DNA of 64,000 nucleotides, from assembly GCA_004296885.1 (NCBI GenBank), contig SCVN01000023.1:248001-312000 (forward strand), in the 5' to 3' direction. The position numbers were made by a program, and so were the translations under genes. The notes below the pieces were generated by a model. The model was not told where the DNA came from. It saw nothing but the letters and a program-made list of their open reading frames with translations, and did no database searches. The stretch comes from Nitrospirota bacterium (lineage in GTDB: Bacteria; Nitrospirota; Nitrospiria; Nitrospirales; Nitrospiraceae). The first letter of the stretch is position 1, and every line of letters begins with the position of its first letter. Below, in pieces: positions 23,640 through 32,081 of this stretch.

Positions 23640-23668
23640 TTGACTCTCCTCCGACCCCTCCCTATAAT
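23640..23668 (+). promoter_or_regulatory. Near-consensus sigma70 promoter
   Basis: TTGACT (23640-23645), exactly 17 bases, TATAAT (23663-23668), about 35 bases before the ATG at 23704. It is the best promoter match seen in the window and would drive the MutL/GlmL-like cluster. Confidence 0.75.
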
Positions 23669-23703
23669 GCCGTCATCGCTGAATTTCCTGGATTTTCTTC
23701 CCC

Positions 23704-24075
23704 ATGAACCCACAGGTCAAAGCGCATCTGGCCCAGCGGATTGACGGGCTGAAAGCCGGTCTCAGACATGCCTTTGCCCTCGGCTCGCCCGATAAGCAAC
23801 TCACTGCCGAGGAAACGGCGCTGCTGGAGAAAGTCGCAACAACGATTGTCCGGCGAAAGATGTCCGGCCCGGCCCTGTTGTTTCTCGAATCGGCCGGCCC
23901 GATGAATTTCCTCGGCAGCCAGGCCTTGCACTTCCTGGCCCCCATCCTCGACCTGGCCTGCGACGCGCGGGAGGTCGAGCTGGCGGCTCATCTTCTTGAA
24001 CGGCGCGACGCCATCTCCCACCTCATCGCCATGATTGAAGCCTTGGACAGTCCCGGGACGACCGTTCCTCAATGA
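23704..24075 (+). CDS. Small helical protein, first gene of the MutL/GlmL-like cluster
   Basis: 123 aa, no signal or membrane segment. Helical with a hydrophobic core: MNPQVKAHLAQRIDGLKAGLRHAF, EETALLEKVATTIVRRKMSGPALLFLESAGPMNFLGSQALHFLAPILDL. The FLESxxPMNF-LxSQ-x-LHFL-x-P stretch has the look of a conserved motif. The stop overlaps the next ATG (ATGA), so it is probably made in step with the ATPase-like protein. Possibly an adaptor; no function can be assigned. Confidence 0.75.
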   Translation: MNPQVKAHLAQRIDGLKAGLRHAFALGSPDKQLTAEETALLEKVATTIVRRKMSGPALLFLESAGPMNFLGSQALHFLAPILDLACDAREVELAAHLLERRDAISHLIAMIEALDSPGTTVPQ

Positions 24076-25916
24076 CGCCCGCACCCGCCTCGCCGACAAG
24101 CCAGCAGGGAGATCATCCGCTCTCGGTGATCATTGCCACGGATTGCGGCAGCACCACGACCAAGGCCATCCTGATCGAGAAAGTCGGCAACGAATACCGG
24201 CAGACTTACCGGGGCGAAGCGCCCACCACGGTCGAAGCCCCGTTCGAGGACGTCACCCGCGGGGTCCTGAACGCCTTCGCCGAAGTCGAAGAGCTTTCCG
24301 GCCGCAAGATTCTGGACGGGGAGCGGATCATCACGCCGGCGCGGGAGGAGCAAGGCAAGAAAGTCGGCGTGGATATCTATGTCTCCACCAGCAGCGCCGG
24401 AGGCGGCTTGCAGATGATGGTGGCCGGGGTCGTCCAAAACATCAGCGGGGAGAGCGCGCAACGTTGCGCCCTGGGGGCCGGCGCGATCGTCATGGACGTC
24501 CTGGCCAGCAACGACGGCCGCTTGCCGCACGAGAAGATCGAGCGGATCAGGAGGCTGAGACCAGACATGATCCTCCTCTCCGGCGGGACCGACGGCGGCA
24601 CCGTCACCCACGTGGTGGAGATGGCCGAATACATCGCCGCGGCCGAGCCGCGCCCCAGGCTGGGCATGAGCTATTCGCTCCCGCTCATCTATGCCGGCAA
24701 CAAGGATGCGCAGCCGCGCATCAAGGACATCCTGGAGCAGAAGACCGCCCTGACCCTCACCGAGAATCTGCGTCCCACGCCGGAGCGGGAAAACCTGGCC
24801 CCGGCCCGCAACAAGATCCACGACTTGTTCCTGGAGCACGTCATGGCCCAGGCGCCGGGTTACAAGAAATTGATCGACTGGACCGGAGCGCCGATCATGC
24901 CGACGCCGGCCGCGGTGGGACTCATCATGCAGACCATCGCCAAGCGGGAAAACCTGAACCTGATCGGCGTGGACATCGGCGGCGCGACCACCGACGTCTT
25001 CTCCGTCTTCGGGGAGACCTTCAACCGGACCGTGAGCGCCAACCTGGGCATGTCCTACAGCATCTCCAACGTCCTGGCCGAGGCGGGTCTGGCGAACATC
25101 ATGCGCTGGGTGCCGTTTACGCTCGAGGAACAGGTCCTGCGCAACCGGATCAAGAACAAGATGATCCGGCCGACGACGATTCCCCAAACTTTGGACGAAC
25201 TCCAGATCGAGCAGGCCATCTCGCGGGAAGCCTTGCGGCTGGCTCTCATCCATCACAAGTCCCTGGCGACCGGCTTGAAGGGCGTCCAGCAGGAACGCAC
25301 GATCTCGGACATCTTCGAGCAGCAAGCTTCGGGTAAGACCCTGATCGACATGTTGAAGCTGGACTTGATCGTCGGGAGCGGCGGCATCCTGTCCCATGCG
25401 CCGCGCCGTATCCAATCCATGCTGATGATGGTGGACGCCTACGAGCCGCTCGGCTTCACGGTCCTCTCCGTGGACAGCATCTTCATGATGCCGCACCTGG
25501 GCGTCCTCTCCACGGTCAACGAACAGGCGGCGACGGACGTGTTCGTCCGCGACTGCATGGTCTACCTGGGCACCTGCGTCGCGCCGATCGGGCAGGGGAA
25601 GGACGGGGAACGTTGCGCCGACTATACGATCACCTTCGGCGGAAACCGATCAGCCGAGACCGGCGCCCTGGCCTTCGGCGACCTGAAGCTCTTGCCCCTC
25701 GGCACGGAGGAGCGGGCGACCGTCGAGCTGCGACCGGCCAAGAATGTAGACATGGGCTCAGGCAAAGGCACAGCAGTCACCCGTGAAGTCAGGGGAGGGG
25801 TGGTAGGGTTGCTGCTCGACGGCCGGGGCCGCCCGCTCCAGTTGCCTGGCGACAACCAGGCCAGGCTCAAGGCGCTCACAAAGTGGTATCAGGCGGTGGA
25901 CTTGTATCCGAGATGA
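24072..25916 (+). CDS. MutL/GlmL-family actin-fold protein (glutamate mutase accessory-like)
   Basis: 614 aa. Two ASKHA nucleotide-binding signatures are visible: IATDCGSTTTKAILIE near residue 23 (phosphate 1) and LIGVDIGGATTDVFSVFG near residue 300 (phosphate 2). Additional motifs are STSSAGGGLQMMV, ILLSGGTDGG and LIVGSGGILSHAP. Family members (MutL/GlmL) are encoded with the MutS/MutE subunits of B12-dependent methylaspartate mutase and are thought to be chaperone-like. No mutase, B12-binding domain or methylaspartase gene is nearby; instead four membrane proteins follow. Its role here is therefore unlikely to be mutase reactivation, but this is inference. Confidence 0.85.
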   Translation: MTPAPASPTSQQGDHPLSVIIATDCGSTTTKAILIEKVGNEYRQTYRGEAPTTVEAPFEDVTRGVLNAFAEVEELSGRKILDGERIITPAREEQGKKVGVDIYVSTSSAGGGLQMMVAGVVQNISGESAQRCALGAGAIVMDVLASNDGRLPHEKIERIRRLRPDMILLSGGTDGGTVTHVVEMAEYIAAAEPRPRLGMSYSLPLIYAGNKDAQPRIKDILEQKTALTLTENLRPTPERENLAPARNKIHDLFLEHVMAQAPGYKKLIDWTGAPIMPTPAAVGLIMQTIAKRENLNLIGVDIGGATTDVFSVFGETFNRTVSANLGMSYSISNVLAEAGLANIMRWVPFTLEEQVLRNRIKNKMIRPTTIPQTLDELQIEQAISREALRLALIHHKSLATGLKGVQQERTISDIFEQQASGKTLIDMLKLDLIVGSGGILSHAPRRIQSMLMMVDAYEPLGFTVLSVDSIFMMPHLGVLSTVNEQAATDVFVRDCMVYLGTCVAPIGQGKDGERCADYTITFGGNRSAETGALAFGDLKLLPLGTEERATVELRPAKNVDMGSGKGTAVTREVRGGVVGLLLDGRGRPLQLPGDNQARLKALTKWYQAVDLYPR

Positions 25917-25921
25917 GTCTA

Positions 25922-25995
25922 TCAAGTCGGAAAGTGTGAAAGTCTTTCAAATACCGACCCTATAACTTTTAGACTTTTCGACTTTCCAACTTTGA
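25922..25995. repeat. Intergenic hairpin built of 8-base units (AAAGTNNN)
   Basis: The left arm has AAGTCGGA, AAGTGTGA, AAGTCTTT. The reverse complement of the right arm reads AAAGTTGG, AAAGTCGA, AAAGTCTA, AAAGTTAT. The two arms pair imperfectly over about 28 bases around a 12-base loop. It lies between two genes of one cluster. Confidence 0.7.
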
Positions 25996-26006
25996 GACGC
26001 TAATTT

Positions 26007-27140
26007 ATGGCCCATTCCTACACACCAGGCCTGACAGTCACCGAGACAGCGGTGCTTCGCAAACGTCGGCTCCTGCCCATTCCCGGCACGGTCACGGTGA
26101 AGACCGGCGATCAGGTCCAGGCCAATACGGTGGTCGCGCGGACCGAGCTGGCCGGCAAGGTCCACGTGGTGAACGTGGCCAACCTGCTCGGAGCGGCGCC
26201 GGACGAGATCAGAGACTATCTGACCAAGAAGGAAGGGGAGACGATCACCCGCGATGAAGTAATCGCCGAGAGCAAGCCTTTGATCAAGTGGTTCAGGACC
26301 GAGATCCGGTCGCCCATTGCAGGCAAGCTGGAGTCCGTTTCCTTGATCACGGGACAAGTCCTCCTGCGCGAGCCGCCCAAGGCCCTGGAACTCCTGGCCT
26401 ATGTGGACGGGACCGTCGTCGAGGAACTGCCCGGCCAGGGCGTCACGGTGGAATGTACCGCCAGCTTCGTGCAGGGCATCTTCGGCATCGGGGGAGAGAC
26501 CTGGGGGGAACTGGCCATGGCGGTCCGGTCGCCGGATGAGCAGCTCACGCCTGGCCATCTCCAGCCCTCGATGAAAGGCAAGATCGTGGTCGGCGGTTCG
26601 TTCCTGGGGGCCGACACGATGGCCAAGGCCAGGGAGATCGGCGTGGCGGCCCTGGTCGTCGGGGGCATCCACGATAAGGATTTACGCGAGCTGTTGGGCT
26701 ATGATCTGGGCGTAGCGATCACCGGAACCGAGCGGATCGGCTTTACTCTCGTCATCACGGAAGGATTCGGCGTGATCCCCATGGCGGCCAAGACCTTTGC
26801 CCTGCTGGCAACCCATGAAGGTCAAAAGGCGTCAATTTCTGGCGCCACGCAAATCAGAGCCGGCGTCATCCGGCCGGAGATCATCATTCCGAAGCCTGCC
26901 AAGTCCGCCGCGGCGCAGCCTTCCGGCAAGGGAGCGGAAGAGCGGGCCGGCATCCAGGCCGGCGATCAGGTCCGGGTCATCCGCGACCCATTATTCGGCC
27001 GGATCGGCAACGTGAAGTCACTGCCGACGGATCTGCGACTGATTGAAACAGAAAGCCACGTCCGGGTGCTCGAAGTCGGGTTTGCGGATGGAAGCTCGAC
27101 CGTGATTCCCAGGGCCAACGTGGAACTCATCGAAGGCTGA
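26007..27140 (+). CDS. Barrel-sandwich/KOW-like protein of unknown function
   Basis: 377 aa, soluble. The N-terminus (LRKRRLLPIPGTVTVKTGDQVQANTVVARTEL) resembles a biotinyl/lipoyl-type barrel sandwich half as in RnfC or RNA polymerase beta'. A second such half may lie around FRTEIRSPIAGKLESVSLITGQVLL. The centre has ALVVGGIHDKDLRELLGYDLGVAITGTE. The C-terminus (IQAGDQVRVIRDPLFGRIGNVKSLP...VIPRANVELIEG) looks KOW/SH3-like. There is no acceptor Lys in an MKL motif, so it is not obviously biotinylated. It lies between the ATPase-like gene and membrane proteins, so it may be a scaffold. Confidence 0.75.
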   Translation: MAHSYTPGLTVTETAVLRKRRLLPIPGTVTVKTGDQVQANTVVARTELAGKVHVVNVANLLGAAPDEIRDYLTKKEGETITRDEVIAESKPLIKWFRTEIRSPIAGKLESVSLITGQVLLREPPKALELLAYVDGTVVEELPGQGVTVECTASFVQGIFGIGGETWGELAMAVRSPDEQLTPGHLQPSMKGKIVVGGSFLGADTMAKAREIGVAALVVGGIHDKDLRELLGYDLGVAITGTERIGFTLVITEGFGVIPMAAKTFALLATHEGQKASISGATQIRAGVIRPEIIIPKPAKSAAAQPSGKGAEERAGIQAGDQVRVIRDPLFGRIGNVKSLPTDLRLIETESHVRVLEVGFADGSSTVIPRANVELIEG

Positions 27141-27142
27141 GG

Positions 27143-28405
27143 ATGAACGAAGCGCGTGACATGACCGGCTTAATAGGATGGGCGCGCTTGCTGGTTCTGG
27201 CAATCGCCCTGGTCGCAGCCTGGCCGGCAGCCCTGTGGGCGTCCGGAGTCTCGGCCCCGCGCGAAGTGCAGGTCTTCGACACCCCCAACGACGGAGGCGG
27301 AGGCCTCACGGTGACCTGGGCGCCCGAGCCGGGGGAAGGGCCGTCGGTTCACTATCACGTCATGCTAGCCGCAGCCCAGGACGGGGCTTCGGCCAAGCAA
27401 CTGGCTGAGTTCCCCGCCAACAGCCACTATGCGAAGGAGCTCAAGAACCCCTGGTGGACCCGCCCGGTCCCCATGACCTATCACCAATACGACATCAAGA
27501 CTGGCAAGGGCGTCGAACTCAAGGACGGGACTTCCTACGTCGTGACCCTCGCCATGACCAACGGGGAGGAGCGGGCCGAGACAAGGGCGGCGCCGGCCAC
27601 GCCGGAGCCCAATTGGATCAACTGGAACCAGGCCAACAATCTGCTGCTTGTCCTGCTGTTCGGCGCGGTGCTCTTCGCCTCGATCCAGGCGGCCAAGAAA
27701 CGGGAGATATTCCTCCGACGCATCGCCGGGCTGGACGCGGTGGACGAGGCGATCGGGCGGGCCACGGAGCTGGGCAAGCCGATTCTTTATCTCACCGGCG
27801 CCGGCGACATGAGCGAACCCTCCACGATCGCCGCCGCCGTGATCCTCGGCCGCGTGGCCAAGCGCGTCGCCGCCTATGAAACGGACCTCATGGTGCCGCA
27901 TCGGGACCCGATCGTCATGGCCGTCTGCCAGGAGATCACCAAACAATCCTATCTGGAGGCGGGCAAGCCGGATGTCTTCAAGGAAGACTCCAATTTTTTC
28001 ATCACCACCGACCAGTTCAGCTACACGGCCGCCGTGGACGGGATCATGTTGCGGCGCAAGCCAGCCGCCAACTTCTTCATGGGCTCCTACTTCGCCGAGT
28101 CGCTGCTGCTGACCGAAACCGGCGCCAGCACCGGCGCCATCCAGATTGCCGGCACCGACTCCGACCACCAGTTGCCCTTCTTCGTGACAACCTGCGACTA
28201 TACGTTGATCGGAGAGGAGCTCTACGCGGCCAGCGCCTACCTGTCGCGCGAGCCGGTCCAGGTGGGCACGTTGCGCGGGCAGGACATCGGCAAGGGCATC
28301 ATCCTCTGCGTGCTGGGGATCGGGACGATCCTGGCGACGAGCGGCATCCTGTTCGGCACGGAGTTCCAAACGCTCTTTCTCGATTTCTTCAAGGACGTGA
28401 AATGA
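27143..28405 (+). CDS. Signal-bearing membrane protein with FN3-like domain
   Basis: 420 aa. A signal peptide (LLVLAIALVAAWPAALWASG) is followed by a fibronectin-III-like extracytoplasmic region (APREVQVFDTPNDGGGGLTVTWAP ... LKDGTSYVVTLAMTNGEE). A membrane segment follows at ~163-182 (NNLLLVLLFGAVLFASIQA). The next ~190 residues include RIAGLDAVDEAIGRATELGKPILYLTGAGDMSEPSTIAAA and MGSYFAESLLLTETGAS, with a last membrane helix near 380-400. The second half has the look of a conserved DUF. Two bases after the previous stop and overlapping the next start by 4. Function unknown. Confidence 0.8.
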   Translation: MNEARDMTGLIGWARLLVLAIALVAAWPAALWASGVSAPREVQVFDTPNDGGGGLTVTWAPEPGEGPSVHYHVMLAAAQDGASAKQLAEFPANSHYAKELKNPWWTRPVPMTYHQYDIKTGKGVELKDGTSYVVTLAMTNGEERAETRAAPATPEPNWINWNQANNLLLVLLFGAVLFASIQAAKKREIFLRRIAGLDAVDEAIGRATELGKPILYLTGAGDMSEPSTIAAAVILGRVAKRVAAYETDLMVPHRDPIVMAVCQEITKQSYLEAGKPDVFKEDSNFFITTDQFSYTAAVDGIMLRRKPAANFFMGSYFAESLLLTETGASTGAIQIAGTDSDHQLPFFVTTCDYTLIGEELYAASAYLSREPVQVGTLRGQDIGKGIILCVLGIGTILATSGILFGTEFQTLFLDFFKDVK

Positions 28406-29052
28406 TCTTCTTCCGCCGCCAACTGCCCCTGCTGATCACGCTCGTGACGGGAATCGTCTTCGCGGCCCAGTATTACGTGCCGCATCCCGCCTCCGAGGAG
28501 ATGCTGACCACCGTCACCAAGTGGTTGCAGATCATCGGCGGCTTCGCGCTCGTGCTGGGCGTCACCAGTCTTTTCCATCTCCATGCGGTCAAGATCCGCC
28601 GCAAGGAGCCGGGCTGGGGCTACAGCTTCGTCCTCTACGCGGCCATGCTCGGCACCATCGCGGTCGGGCTCTGGCTGGAGGGGAAGGAAACGGTCAACGG
28701 CACCATGACCGCCTTCGGCTGGATCTACAACTTCATGATGGTCCCGCTCCAGGGCACCATGTTTGCCATCCTGGCTTTTTTCATCGCCTCGGCCGCCTAC
28801 CGGTCGTTCCGGGCCAGGAGCCGCGAAGCGGCGGTGCTCCTGATCGCCGCCATCATCGTGATGATGGGCCGGGTGCCGCTGGGGGAGTATCTGGTGCCGA
28901 TCAGCGGAGACATCACGCAATGGATTTTGAACGTGCTCAACGCCTCGGTGCGGCGCGCGATCCTGATCGGGGTCAGCCTGGGCGCCGTCGCCCTGTCGCT
29001 GAAGATCATCTTCGGAGTCGAGCGCGCCTATCTGGGCGGGGGAAAGGAGTAA
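28402..29052 (+). CDS. Polytopic membrane protein (about 6 TM)
   Basis: 216 aa with hydrophobic segments near residues 8-25, 43-62, 75-93, 112-132, 142-160 and 183-203, separated by short charged loops (HAVKIRRKEPGW, RSFRARSREAA). No transporter or enzyme motif was recognised. ATGA overlap with the upstream gene implies co-translation. Likely a membrane subunit of the same complex as its neighbours. Confidence 0.78.
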   Translation: MIFFRRQLPLLITLVTGIVFAAQYYVPHPASEEMLTTVTKWLQIIGGFALVLGVTSLFHLHAVKIRRKEPGWGYSFVLYAAMLGTIAVGLWLEGKETVNGTMTAFGWIYNFMMVPLQGTMFAILAFFIASAAYRSFRARSREAAVLLIAAIIVMMGRVPLGEYLVPISGDITQWILNVLNASVRRAILIGVSLGAVALSLKIIFGVERAYLGGGKE

Positions 29053-29125
29053 AACGTGAATGGTGAATAGTAAAAGGCACGGAAAGACTTTTCGGCCTTT
29101 CACTGTTCACCGTTCACTATTTACG
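29053..29125. repeat. Intergenic hairpin built of 7-base units (GTGAANR)
   Basis: The left arm has GTGAATG, GTGAATA, GTAAAAG. The reverse complement of the right arm has GTGAACG, GTGAACA, GTGAAAG. The arms pair over about 30 bases with almost no loop. It fills the whole gap between two cotranscribed membrane protein genes. Confidence 0.72.
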
Positions 29126-29130
29126 CATTT

Positions 29131-29979
29131 ATGACCTTCGCCGAACGCATGTTGAAAATCGACCGCCGGATCATCTTCGCCGTGATCGGGCTCTGCACGC
29201 TCTTGCCGCTGCTCTACCCGGTGGGGCTGGCCATCCGGATTTCCCCGGAAGTGAAGGCCGTGCACGACTATATCGAATCCCTGCCGGAAGGCTCGGTCTT
29301 CCTCCTGTCGCTGGACTTCGACCCAGCCTCCAAGCCGGAGCTTTACCCGCAGGCCGTGGCCCTGCTCCGCCACGCCTTCAAGCACAACCTGCGCGTAATC
29401 GGCATGACTCTCTGGCTGCCGGGCACGGGCATGGCCAACGAGGTCATTACGAGGATCGCGGAGGAACAGGGCAAGGTCAACGGCAAGGACTATGTGTTCC
29501 TGGGCTGGAGCCCCGGCGGCAGCTCCGTCATCATCAACATGGGGCAGGACCTCTACAAAGCGTTCCCAACCGATTACGGCAACCAGCCGACCAAAGGCTT
29601 GGCGGTCCTGAACGGCGTCCAAAACCTCCGCGACGTGAGCTATGTGGTGAGCCTGGCGGCGGGCACGACGGGGATCGAAACCTGGTACGTGTTCGGCAAG
29701 GACAAGTACAAGTTCGAGCTGGGCGGCGGCTGCACCGGCGTGATCGCGCCAGGGCTCTATCCGCTCCTGCGCAGCGGCCAGATCAACGGCCTGATCGGCG
29801 GCCTGCGCGGCGCGGCCGAGTACGAAGTCCTGATCGGCCAGAAGGGCCGGGCGGTCGCCGGCATGGACGCCCAGTCCGTCACGCACTTTGCGATCATCAT
29901 CCTGGTGATCCTCTGCAACGTCTTCTATCTGTCCATCCGGAGGGCCAGGCAGGCCCAGGGGCAGGGGAGCCATTCCTGA
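29131..29979 (+). CDS. Membrane-anchored protein with N- and C-terminal TM helices
   Basis: 282 aa. TM helix near 14-34 (IIFAVIGLCTLLPLLYPVGLAI), about 215 extracytoplasmic or cytoplasmic residues, then TM near 252-272 (FAIIILVILCNVFYLSI) with a positively charged tail. The soluble part contains VFLLSLDFDPASKPELYPQAVALLRHAF, LGWSPGGSSVIINMGQDLYKAF, FELGGGCTGVIAPGLYPLLRSGQINGLIGGLRGAAEYE. The Gly-rich LGGGCTG and GLIGGLRGAAEYE look conserved. Its stop overlaps the next start (TGATG). No family assigned. Confidence 0.78.
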   Translation: MTFAERMLKIDRRIIFAVIGLCTLLPLLYPVGLAIRISPEVKAVHDYIESLPEGSVFLLSLDFDPASKPELYPQAVALLRHAFKHNLRVIGMTLWLPGTGMANEVITRIAEEQGKVNGKDYVFLGWSPGGSSVIINMGQDLYKAFPTDYGNQPTKGLAVLNGVQNLRDVSYVVSLAAGTTGIETWYVFGKDKYKFELGGGCTGVIAPGLYPLLRSGQINGLIGGLRGAAEYEVLIGQKGRAVAGMDAQSVTHFAIIILVILCNVFYLSIRRARQAQGQGSHS

Positions 29980-30731
29980 TGTCGTTTGAACTCTTACTCG
30001 GAGCCTGGGTCGCCACGGGACTGACCCTCTTCATCTTCACCTTCCTCTACGAGGACAACCCTCTGTTCAAGATGGCGGAGCACCTCTACGTGGGCATCTC
30101 CGTCGGCTATGCCATCGTCAAGACCTATGACACGGTAATCATCCGCCTGATCTACGAACCCATGGTCAAGCAAGGCGACTGGTCGCTGCTGATCCCCCTG
30201 GGTATCGGCATGCTCATGCTGGCCCGGTATGTGCCCAAGGCCACCTGGATGTCCCGCATCGCCTTCGCCTTCATCGTCGGGGTCGGCTCGGGTCTAGCCA
30301 TTCCCCGGGTCGTTTCGTCCTTCATCCTCAAGCAGGTCGAGGATACGGTGCGCCCGCTGGCCTCCATGGTGCAGGGAAACCCGACTTTCTCGTTCAGCCT
30401 GGCCGATCCGGCCAGCAACCTGAACGCCATCATCCTGCTGGTCGGGGTGGTCTCCGTGCTCTTTTATTTCTTCTTTTCGATCGAACACAAGGGGCCGGTG
30501 CAAGTCGCGGCCAGAACCGGCATCCTCTTTCTGATGATCGCCTTCGGCGCCGCCTTCGGCTATACGGTCATGGCCCGCATGTCGCTGCTCATCGGCCGGC
30601 TGACCGACCTTATCGAATATGCAGAGCCCCGCTACGGCCGGCCCTCCCTCTGGCTGGCCGCCGTCACGGTCATCGGCCTGGTTCTCTGGAGCATGAAACG
30701 CAGGCCACAGACAGAGCCCACGGAGGAATAG
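29979..30731 (+). CDS. Polytopic membrane protein, last gene of the cluster
   Basis: 250 aa with roughly six to seven TM segments: near 4-24 (LLLGAWVATGLTLFIFTFLY), 60-80, 88-108 (IAFAFIVGVGSGLAIPRVV), 150-168 (LNAIILLVGVVSVLFYFFFS), 178-200 and 220-240. It includes the polar segment YEDNPLFKMAEHLYVGISVGYAIVKTYDT between TM1 and TM2. No known transporter signature. It closes the run that began at 23704. Confidence 0.78.
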   Translation: MSFELLLGAWVATGLTLFIFTFLYEDNPLFKMAEHLYVGISVGYAIVKTYDTVIIRLIYEPMVKQGDWSLLIPLGIGMLMLARYVPKATWMSRIAFAFIVGVGSGLAIPRVVSSFILKQVEDTVRPLASMVQGNPTFSFSLADPASNLNAIILLVGVVSVLFYFFFSIEHKGPVQVAARTGILFLMIAFGAAFGYTVMARMSLLIGRLTDLIEYAEPRYGRPSLWLAAVTVIGLVLWSMKRRPQTEPTEE

Positions 30732-30818: not shown

Positions 30819-32081
30819 ATGACCCAGGCCATACAAGACGCCCCCAAAGACCCAGCCAAGTTCCCGCTCTTGCGGAACCTCCAATATTCGCCGATCAAGG
30901 AGAAGGAAGAGCAGTATGTGGTCCTCTGGGACCCGACCGGGCTCAGCCAGGAGAAGCTGGTCCTGCCGGTCCATTACTTTTTCATCATCCAGCACCTCGA
31001 CGGCGAACATTCCCTCGAACAGATCGGGGCCGCCTACCTCAAGCGCTTCGGCGAATTCTTCATGCCGGACCGGCTGCAGCGGCTCATAGCGGACCTGGAC
31101 GAGAAACTCTTCCTGGAAGGGGAGCGGGTCGAGGCGGCCAAGCGTGCCGCCCAGGCAGACTATCGCAATGCCCCAGTCAGGCAGGCCAGGTTTTCAGGCA
31201 AGAGTTACGAGGCTGACGGAGCAAAACTCAAAGTACAGCTTGATGGATTCTTTACGTCCAAAGAAGGGCCGGACTTCAAGCCGTCCGAGAACAAGGGCAA
31301 GAAGATCAAGGGCCTGGTGGCTCCCCATTATGAGCTGCGCCAGGCGGGACCGATCTATGCCTGGGCCTACAAGGAACTGCAGGAGGCGGAGGCGCCCAGC
31401 CTGTTCGTTGTCCTGGGGACCAGCACGGCGGGCCTGACTCACCCCTTTGCCGTCACCGACAAGGATTTCGAGACTCCGCTCGGGGTCGTGCCGGTGGATC
31501 GGGACTTGGTCGCGAGATTCAAAAAGCTGGGAGGGGAACCCTTCTTCGACGAAGACCTCAGCCACCGCAACGAGCACACCATCGAATTCCAACTGCCGTT
31601 CCTGCAACATGCCATGACCGACAAACCTCCGTTTACGATCCTGCCGGTACTCTGCTCCTTCCCCCCCACCTGCATGGTGGATCCCGAGATGAAGGACCTG
31701 GCCGGACAGGTCGAGACCTTCATCGGCATCCTCAAGCAGGCCCTGGCTGAGTCGGGGAGGGACTACTGCCTGATCGGCAGCGCCGAACTGGCCCACCTCG
31801 GCATGAGGTACGGAGACCCATCGCCACCGACGGACTTCTCCTTCCACCGCTGCATGCAGACGGATTTGGAGATGCTCAAGCCGGTGGAGGAATTGAACCC
31901 TGCGTCCTTCGCTTCGTTCATCCAGAAGGAAGGGGACCAACGCCGCATCTCCGGCTTCGCCACGATCTATACCCTCTTGCGGCTGATCCAAGCGGAAAAG
32001 GGAACAGTGCTGCGCTACGACCGGGGCATCACGGATCAGTACAATTCGACGGTGACATACGCCTCCATGGCCTTCTTCTAA
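30819..32081 (+). CDS. MEMO-family protein (AmmeMemoRadiSam system B-like)
   Basis: 420 aa. The C-terminal ~260 residues match the MEMO1 family: LVAPHYELRQAGPIYAWAYKEL, FVVLGTSTAG, SHRNEHTIEFQLPFLQHAM, IGSAELAHLGMRYGD. The His of VAPH and the His of SAELAHLG are plausible metal ligands; the EHTIEF motif aligns with EHSIE in human MEMO1. The N-terminal ~110 residues (LSQEKLVLPVHYFFIIQHLDGEHSLEQIGAAYLKRFG) look PqqD-like. The AMMECR1 and radical SAM partners of the three-part system are not in the window. 87 bases after the membrane cluster. Confidence 0.85.
   Translation: MTQAIQDAPKDPAKFPLLRNLQYSPIKEKEEQYVVLWDPTGLSQEKLVLPVHYFFIIQHLDGEHSLEQIGAAYLKRFGEFFMPDRLQRLIADLDEKLFLEGERVEAAKRAAQADYRNAPVRQARFSGKSYEADGAKLKVQLDGFFTSKEGPDFKPSENKGKKIKGLVAPHYELRQAGPIYAWAYKELQEAEAPSLFVVLGTSTAGLTHPFAVTDKDFETPLGVVPVDRDLVARFKKLGGEPFFDEDLSHRNEHTIEFQLPFLQHAMTDKPPFTILPVLCSFPPTCMVDPEMKDLAGQVETFIGILKQALAESGRDYCLIGSAELAHLGMRYGDPSPPTDFSFHRCMQTDLEMLKPVEELNPASFASFIQKEGDQRRISGFATIYTLLRLIQAEKGTVLRYDRGITDQYNSTVTYASMAFF

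Follow-up and report, generated by a model that had tools for sequence, protein, structure and literature searches.

A conserved gene system links a long-type MutL-family ATPase-like protein with four membrane proteins in Nitrospirota and two other phyla

A published account assigns MutL/GlmL the role of chaperone to glutamate mutase (PMC4682846), and in the glycerol dehydratase reactivase the alpha subunit joins an ATPase to a swiveling domain, with ATP hydrolysis driving the exchange of subunits with the client (PMC7674605). Both kinds of system resemble the locus analysed here. GlmL/MutL of glutamate mutase and OraL of ornithine aminomutase share with the product of gene B, over residues 20-494, the ASKHA family and its nucleotide-site motifs, and the diol/glycerol dehydratase reactivases (DdrA/PduG type, 1NBW) combine an ASKHA ATPase with an alpha/beta domain, parts that are held in one chain in natural fusions of B with gene C. 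The peripheral subunits RnfC and NqrA have a barrel-sandwich hybrid domain of the kind to which C shows profile matches. The PilM-PilN-PilO and GspL inner-membrane platforms also bring an actin-fold protein together with bitopic and polytopic membrane partners, as here, but no part of A–G has a Pfam match to those families.

The locus comprises seven ORFs, A to G, on the forward strand at 23704–30731 of the window, which is the whole 64,000-nt stretch of DNA that was analysed, from a host genome of 3.26 Mb. A seven-gene cluster had been proposed from the letters alone in an earlier note, and every one of its ORFs was recovered in place and on that strand. The features are as follows.

23640..23668, + strand: predicted operon promoter, TTGACT-17-TATAAT, 11/12 consensus matches, 35 nt before gene A
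23704..24075, + strand: gene A, 123 aa, ORF whose position before B is kept in three phyla
24072..25916, + strand: gene B, 614 aa, long-type MutL-family ASKHA ATPase-like protein (PF13941, E=4.5e-126)
25917..26006, + strand: B/C intergenic hairpin, -24.8 kcal/mol, z=-4.4
26007..27140, + strand: gene C, 377 aa, barrel-sandwich, alpha/beta middle and KOW/Tudor C-terminal domains (AF2, profiles, Foldseek)
27143..28405, + strand: gene D, 420 aa, signal/TM, FN3-like, TM, DUF6754 and TM, topology predicted (PF20539, E=1.1e-114)
28402..29052, + strand: gene E, 216 aa, six TM, without family (hydropathy/topology)
29053..29130, + strand: E/F intergenic hairpin, -38.7 kcal/mol, z=-9.4
29131..29979, + strand: gene F, 282 aa, TM, Rossmann-like alpha/beta domain of ~200 aa and TM (AF2, topology)
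29979..30731, + strand: gene G, 250 aa, six or seven TM, without family (hydropathy/topology)
30819..32081, + strand: gene H, Memo/AmmeMemoSam_B, outside the core (PF01875, E=6e-39)

All seven ORFs are under purifying selection, with dN/dS of 0.03-0.21 against three close relatives in which dS is unsaturated, and this, together with a gene order kept across three phyla, indicates that they are real genes. Five of the products (A, C, E, F and G) stay below the cut-off of every Pfam and NCBIfam family; the A product is helical, with the conserved core LFLES..P.NFLGSQAL.F..P...LLERRD. The genes had been said to be linked by six ATGA-like or very short junctions, which is right for four of them (ATGA overlaps at A/B and D/E, 2 nt at C/D, a 1-nt overlap at F/G) and wrong for B/C and E/F, where gaps of 90 and 78 nt each hold a strong hairpin.

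BLASTP and profile searches over 91 loci, and then over 50 further loci, showed that the order A-B-C-D-E-F-G is kept in Nitrospirota, Methylomirabilota and Planctomycetota while the flanks vary, so that the core genes do stay together in related genomes, the opposite of what the earlier note had named as evidence against its reading. Across phyla, B is 69-72% identical to the protein of the window, C 54-60%, D 46-60% and the remaining products 40-70%. DUF6754, the domain carried by D, occurs in 102/346 Nitrospirota genomes, all of them in the window's own taxonomic order: 97/100 in the window's family (f1, which holds Nitrospira), where the system is single-copy, and 5/5 in f2 and f4, with none in f3 or elsewhere among the 346. 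High-quality genomes of f3, a sister family in the same order, lack MutL as well as DUF6754, a clean case of natural absence that would allow a physiological comparison. The domain is further present in 15/95 Methylomirabilota and 90/343 Planctomycetota genomes. One locus labelled Klebsiella pneumoniae (L086, CAMBFS010000002.1) carries DEFG ~53-61% identical to the window together with an Acido-Lenti-1 RNA; this labelling is almost certainly mistaken and the sequence perhaps comes from Acidobacteriota, and DUF6754 is found in 2/297 genomes of the phylum of L086.

Flank clustering and Pfam checks found no gene family common to the flanks across phyla beyond A–G, and apparent extra cross-phylum partner families turned out to be shadow ORFs overlapping core genes. 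The flanking genes are LipA and Memo in Nitrospirota, PGK/TIM in Methylomirabilota, and FtsY-like, DNA polymerase I, FloA, ion channel and other genes in Planctomycetes. Gene H (Memo) follows G throughout Nitrospirota and was not found beside G in Methylomirabilota or Planctomycetota. In one planctomycete a flotillin gene, floA (L128:11687-12712), lies divergent to the DEFG operon and was not seen at the other DEFG loci examined. Genomes of the NS-4 type have extra DNA between C and D, which in L078 (4622-5374) encodes a Tll0287-like protein.

B and D also occur together in genomes in which they are unlinked. Genomes with both DUF6754 and MutL, DUF6754 only, MutL only and neither numbered 83/7/11/242 in Planctomycetota, 14/1/4/76 in Methylomirabilota and 42/3/2/14 among the relatives, the Fisher tests and p-values on these counts ignoring shared ancestry. 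Exceptions among the relatives are mostly incomplete genomes, and several of the MutL-only genomes of Planctomycetota and Methylomirabilota carry short GlmL types. In three genomes of 4 Mb, by size and arrangement apparently those of anammox bacteria (G158, G284 and G190), A-B-C (L182-L184) and D-E-F-G (L131, L129 and L128) form separate operons of the same genome, and several Planctomycetes have DEFG twice in tandem (L122, L138, L139). The modules are not absolute, because in the Planctomycetes L126, L127 and L132 C-D stand without adjoining E-F-G. Proteins of ~700-840 aa join the MutL domain to the barrel-sandwich region of C (L178:6278-8749, L179:7310-9814, L180:703-2808), and in L178 and L179 to its middle domain as well. 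They form a diverged branch of their own in a few Planctomycetes, none was seen beside DEFG, and by their domain make-up they tie the putative ATPase to the barrel-sandwich protein. Genome G236 holds two of them (L178, L179) and also has a complete A-G cluster in which DEFG is doubled, a combination that suggests a second, divergent system. A D-E fusion in L073 was rejected since the joined frame spans a run of N, and a joined E-F frame in L003/L080 was not counted, E being matched only in part. The co-occurrence of unlinked B and D and their shared operons support the earlier proposal that the ATPase-like protein works with a membrane complex, and on sequence evidence A–G is a conserved system of two modules, ABC and DEFG.

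The predicted promoter, already noticed as near-consensus, has counterparts in the relatives: TTGACTC...TATAAT stands before gene A in 50/56 loci, mostly of Nitrospirota and mostly 64-75 nt from the start, and two more Nitrospirota loci have a weaker box. The DNA around the boxes differs among loci, and as read from these alignments the promoter is a phylogenetic footprint. Hairpins with z<-3 were found in 38% of the B/C and 41% of the E/F gaps folded in relatives, and in none of the folded C/D or F/G gaps. Those in many relatives (e.g. L012, L013, L014, L018) have completely different sequences between genomes, and the E/F hairpin was ruled out as a mobile repeat, the genome holding one full copy. 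The hairpins may govern how stable the mRNA is, or the ratio of one module to the other.

The AF2 model of C (pLDDT 84.8) has a barrel-sandwich domain at ~10-190, an alpha/beta middle domain at ~190-297 and a KOW/Tudor tail. Its family profiles match Biotin_lipoyl in 19/25 members (best 7e-6), RnfC_N in 18/25 (best E 1.3e-4), KOW in 15/25 and NQRA_N in 4/25, and Foldseek also recovered the KOW part, all of which agrees with the barrel-sandwich/KOW-like protein that had been described from the letters. A Foldseek likeness of C to viral proteins was set aside, as it involves the KOW domain only. The middle domain gave no convincing match in PDB or Pfam and has a weak likeness to swivelling or PA-type domains (Foldseek E >1e-3; PA in 1/25 members, E=0.02; RraA, E=0.16).

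D carries PF20539/DUF6754 at 382 bits against a cut-off of 27, a domain for which neither a named function nor a relative of solved structure was found. Hydropathy predicts a signal/TM segment, a periplasmic FN3-like region, a TM segment, a cytoplasmic DUF6754 and a final TM segment; the FN3-like region (fn3, E=0.02; profile match to the exopolygalacturonase 2uve, E=1e-4) bears out the signal-bearing FN3-like membrane protein seen earlier. E and G are polytopic and F is bitopic, again as described before. E is ~75-99% identical across Nitrospiraceae, and charged and aromatic residues are invariant in both E and G. F was modelled with a pLDDT of 84.3 and a pTM of 0.80, and by the positive-inside rule its Rossmann-like domain is predicted to be periplasmic. 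It has no clear relative in PDB; its Foldseek matches were set aside as generic Rossmann folds with rmsd mostly of 9-22 Å. Sequence searches found a solved relative for the FN3-like domain of D and none for the D core, E, F or G, and profile comparisons of D with F as homologous halves and of E with G came back empty.

A rival reading is that the cluster encodes an energy-linked complex, in which C would be an RnfC/NqrA-like peripheral subunit, DEFG a redox or ion-translocating core and B an ATP-dependent activator as in the activation of 2-hydroxyacyl-CoA dehydratase. The RnfC_N and NQRA_N matches of C, the match of the B-C fusion L178 to both at E=1e-3 (both below cut-off), the invariant residues of E and G and the occurrence of the cluster in respiratory lineages all fit such a role. 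However, barrel-sandwich domains are widespread, C has middle and KOW domains beyond those of the Rnf/Nqr subunits, no RnfA/D/E or NqrB/D/E and no other redox family was matched in D–G (Pfam, NCBIfam), and no redox neighbour is common across phyla. We consider this reading unlikely. The label of "envelope or energy-linked machine" in the earlier note is a guess that none of these results confirms.

B matches PF13941 (MutL) over positions 1-449 of the 450 of the profile, which confirms the two-signature ASKHA protein noticed at the start, and its motifs DCGSTTTK, DIGGATTD and GSGGILSH, the phosphate and adenosine sites of ASKHA, are invariant in 16 diverse members. Its actin fold, with weak MreB-like_C and FtsA matches, leaves some room for a cytoskeletal or envelope scaffold, in which B would form a filament or ring in the fashion of MreB, FtsA or PilM on a DEFG platform and shape or build the envelope; as a membrane platform that includes the predicted periplasmic FN3-like domain of D, DEFG would suit that role. 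Against it, the MutL family has been described as a chaperone and no cell-shape or division gene is a conserved neighbour, and we find a scaffold a shade less probable still than an energy-linked complex.

Membership in PF13941 also raises the question of whether B is an ordinary GlmL or OraL, the reactivase of a B12 mutase encoded elsewhere, next to which its neighbours would be incidental. B scores below all three curated cut-offs, with 224/475 bits for GlmL (NF040745), 198/600 for OraL (NF040744) and 155.6/204 for glmL_fam (TIGR01319), whereas the mutase-linked controls L170 and L172 reach 554-556 bits. In the MutL tree, in which a few rows have long branches, a branch with 100/100 support parts the short GlmL types from the cluster and fusion types. 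Unlike GlmL and OraL, B is longer by ~120 C-terminal residues and has no adjoining mutase, while the short proteins L170 and L172 adjoin Met_asp_mut_E and L177 adjoins methylaspartate ammonia-lyase. The earlier note had counted a mutase pair elsewhere in the genome, with an identical conserved set of partners, as evidence against the membrane reading; the glutamate mutase E chain PF06368, the B12 mutase family searched, was above its cut-off in 0/61 genomes (the host and 60 relatives). Because the curated scores, the tree and the gene context all separate B from GlmL, we place it by sequence in a separate long MutL subfamily that is neither GlmL nor OraL; of the earlier "MutL/GlmL-type" label, the MutL part stands and the GlmL part does not. 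With its neighbours kept across phyla as well, an ordinary reactivase is very improbable. A chance or lineage-limited operon without joint function, which has nothing in its favour except that no function is known for the cluster, is scarcely credible given the order kept in three phyla, the unlinked co-occurrence, the B-C fusions and the conserved promoter.

The reading that we prefer, and hold tentatively at a little short of an even chance, is that A–G encodes an ATP-driven inner-membrane machine of two modules, in which B, by way of C, remodels, loads or reactivates DEFG. A-B-C would be a cytosolic ATPase module, with B cycling between ATP states like other ASKHA proteins, and the barrel-sandwich and alpha/beta domains of C would pass its movement on to D-E-F-G. 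The latter would form an inner-membrane complex built around E and G as its multipass core. The DUF6754 of D would face the cytoplasm, and the outer face would carry two domains, the alpha/beta one of F and the FN3-like one of D. ABC would then serve DEFG as a chaperone or loading ATPase dedicated to it, much like a reactivase, and let it work repeatedly on a substrate, which might be a cofactor, a lipid or a solute; none of the domains of A–G points to one. That ABC would remodel or load DEFG by means of ATP hydrolysis is suggested by analogy with the glycerol dehydratase reactivase. The two differ in that no sequence match to solved reactivases was found, the likely client here is a membrane complex, C adds barrel-sandwich and KOW domains, and the likeness to the swiveling domain is weak.

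DUF6754, PF20539 and PF13941 are named in no paper of the searchable literature and no gene of the cluster matched a PADLOC model of anti-phage defence. The A–G system is undescribed in searchable papers and as a whole matches no known machine. It could be assigned to none of the known systems compared here, and its biochemical role could prove a variant of something familiar. More cautiously than for the mechanism itself, we suggest a new class of ATP-driven inner-membrane machine, in which a four-protein membrane complex that bears alpha/beta domains at either face is powered or maintained by a reactivase-family ASKHA ATPase. The class would extend over nearly all Nitrospiraceae, a single group of Methylomirabilota and roughly one in four Planctomycetota genomes, among them those of apparent anammox bacteria. 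The proposal lends itself to direct tests through the arrangement of the genes in modules (ABC, DEFG), the fusions and the fixed promoter. Solving the complex would yield a new structure, because five of the seven proteins have no Pfam family above its cut-off and the membrane parts, save for the FN3-like domain of D, have no solved relative by sequence. An ASKHA ATPase whose family is known for chaperoning soluble B12 mutases is found here within a conserved membrane system, one that is near-universal in the family containing Nitrospira and occurs in other lineages of importance to the nitrogen cycle. If the proposal is true, the known range of reactivase-type ATPase activities would widen.
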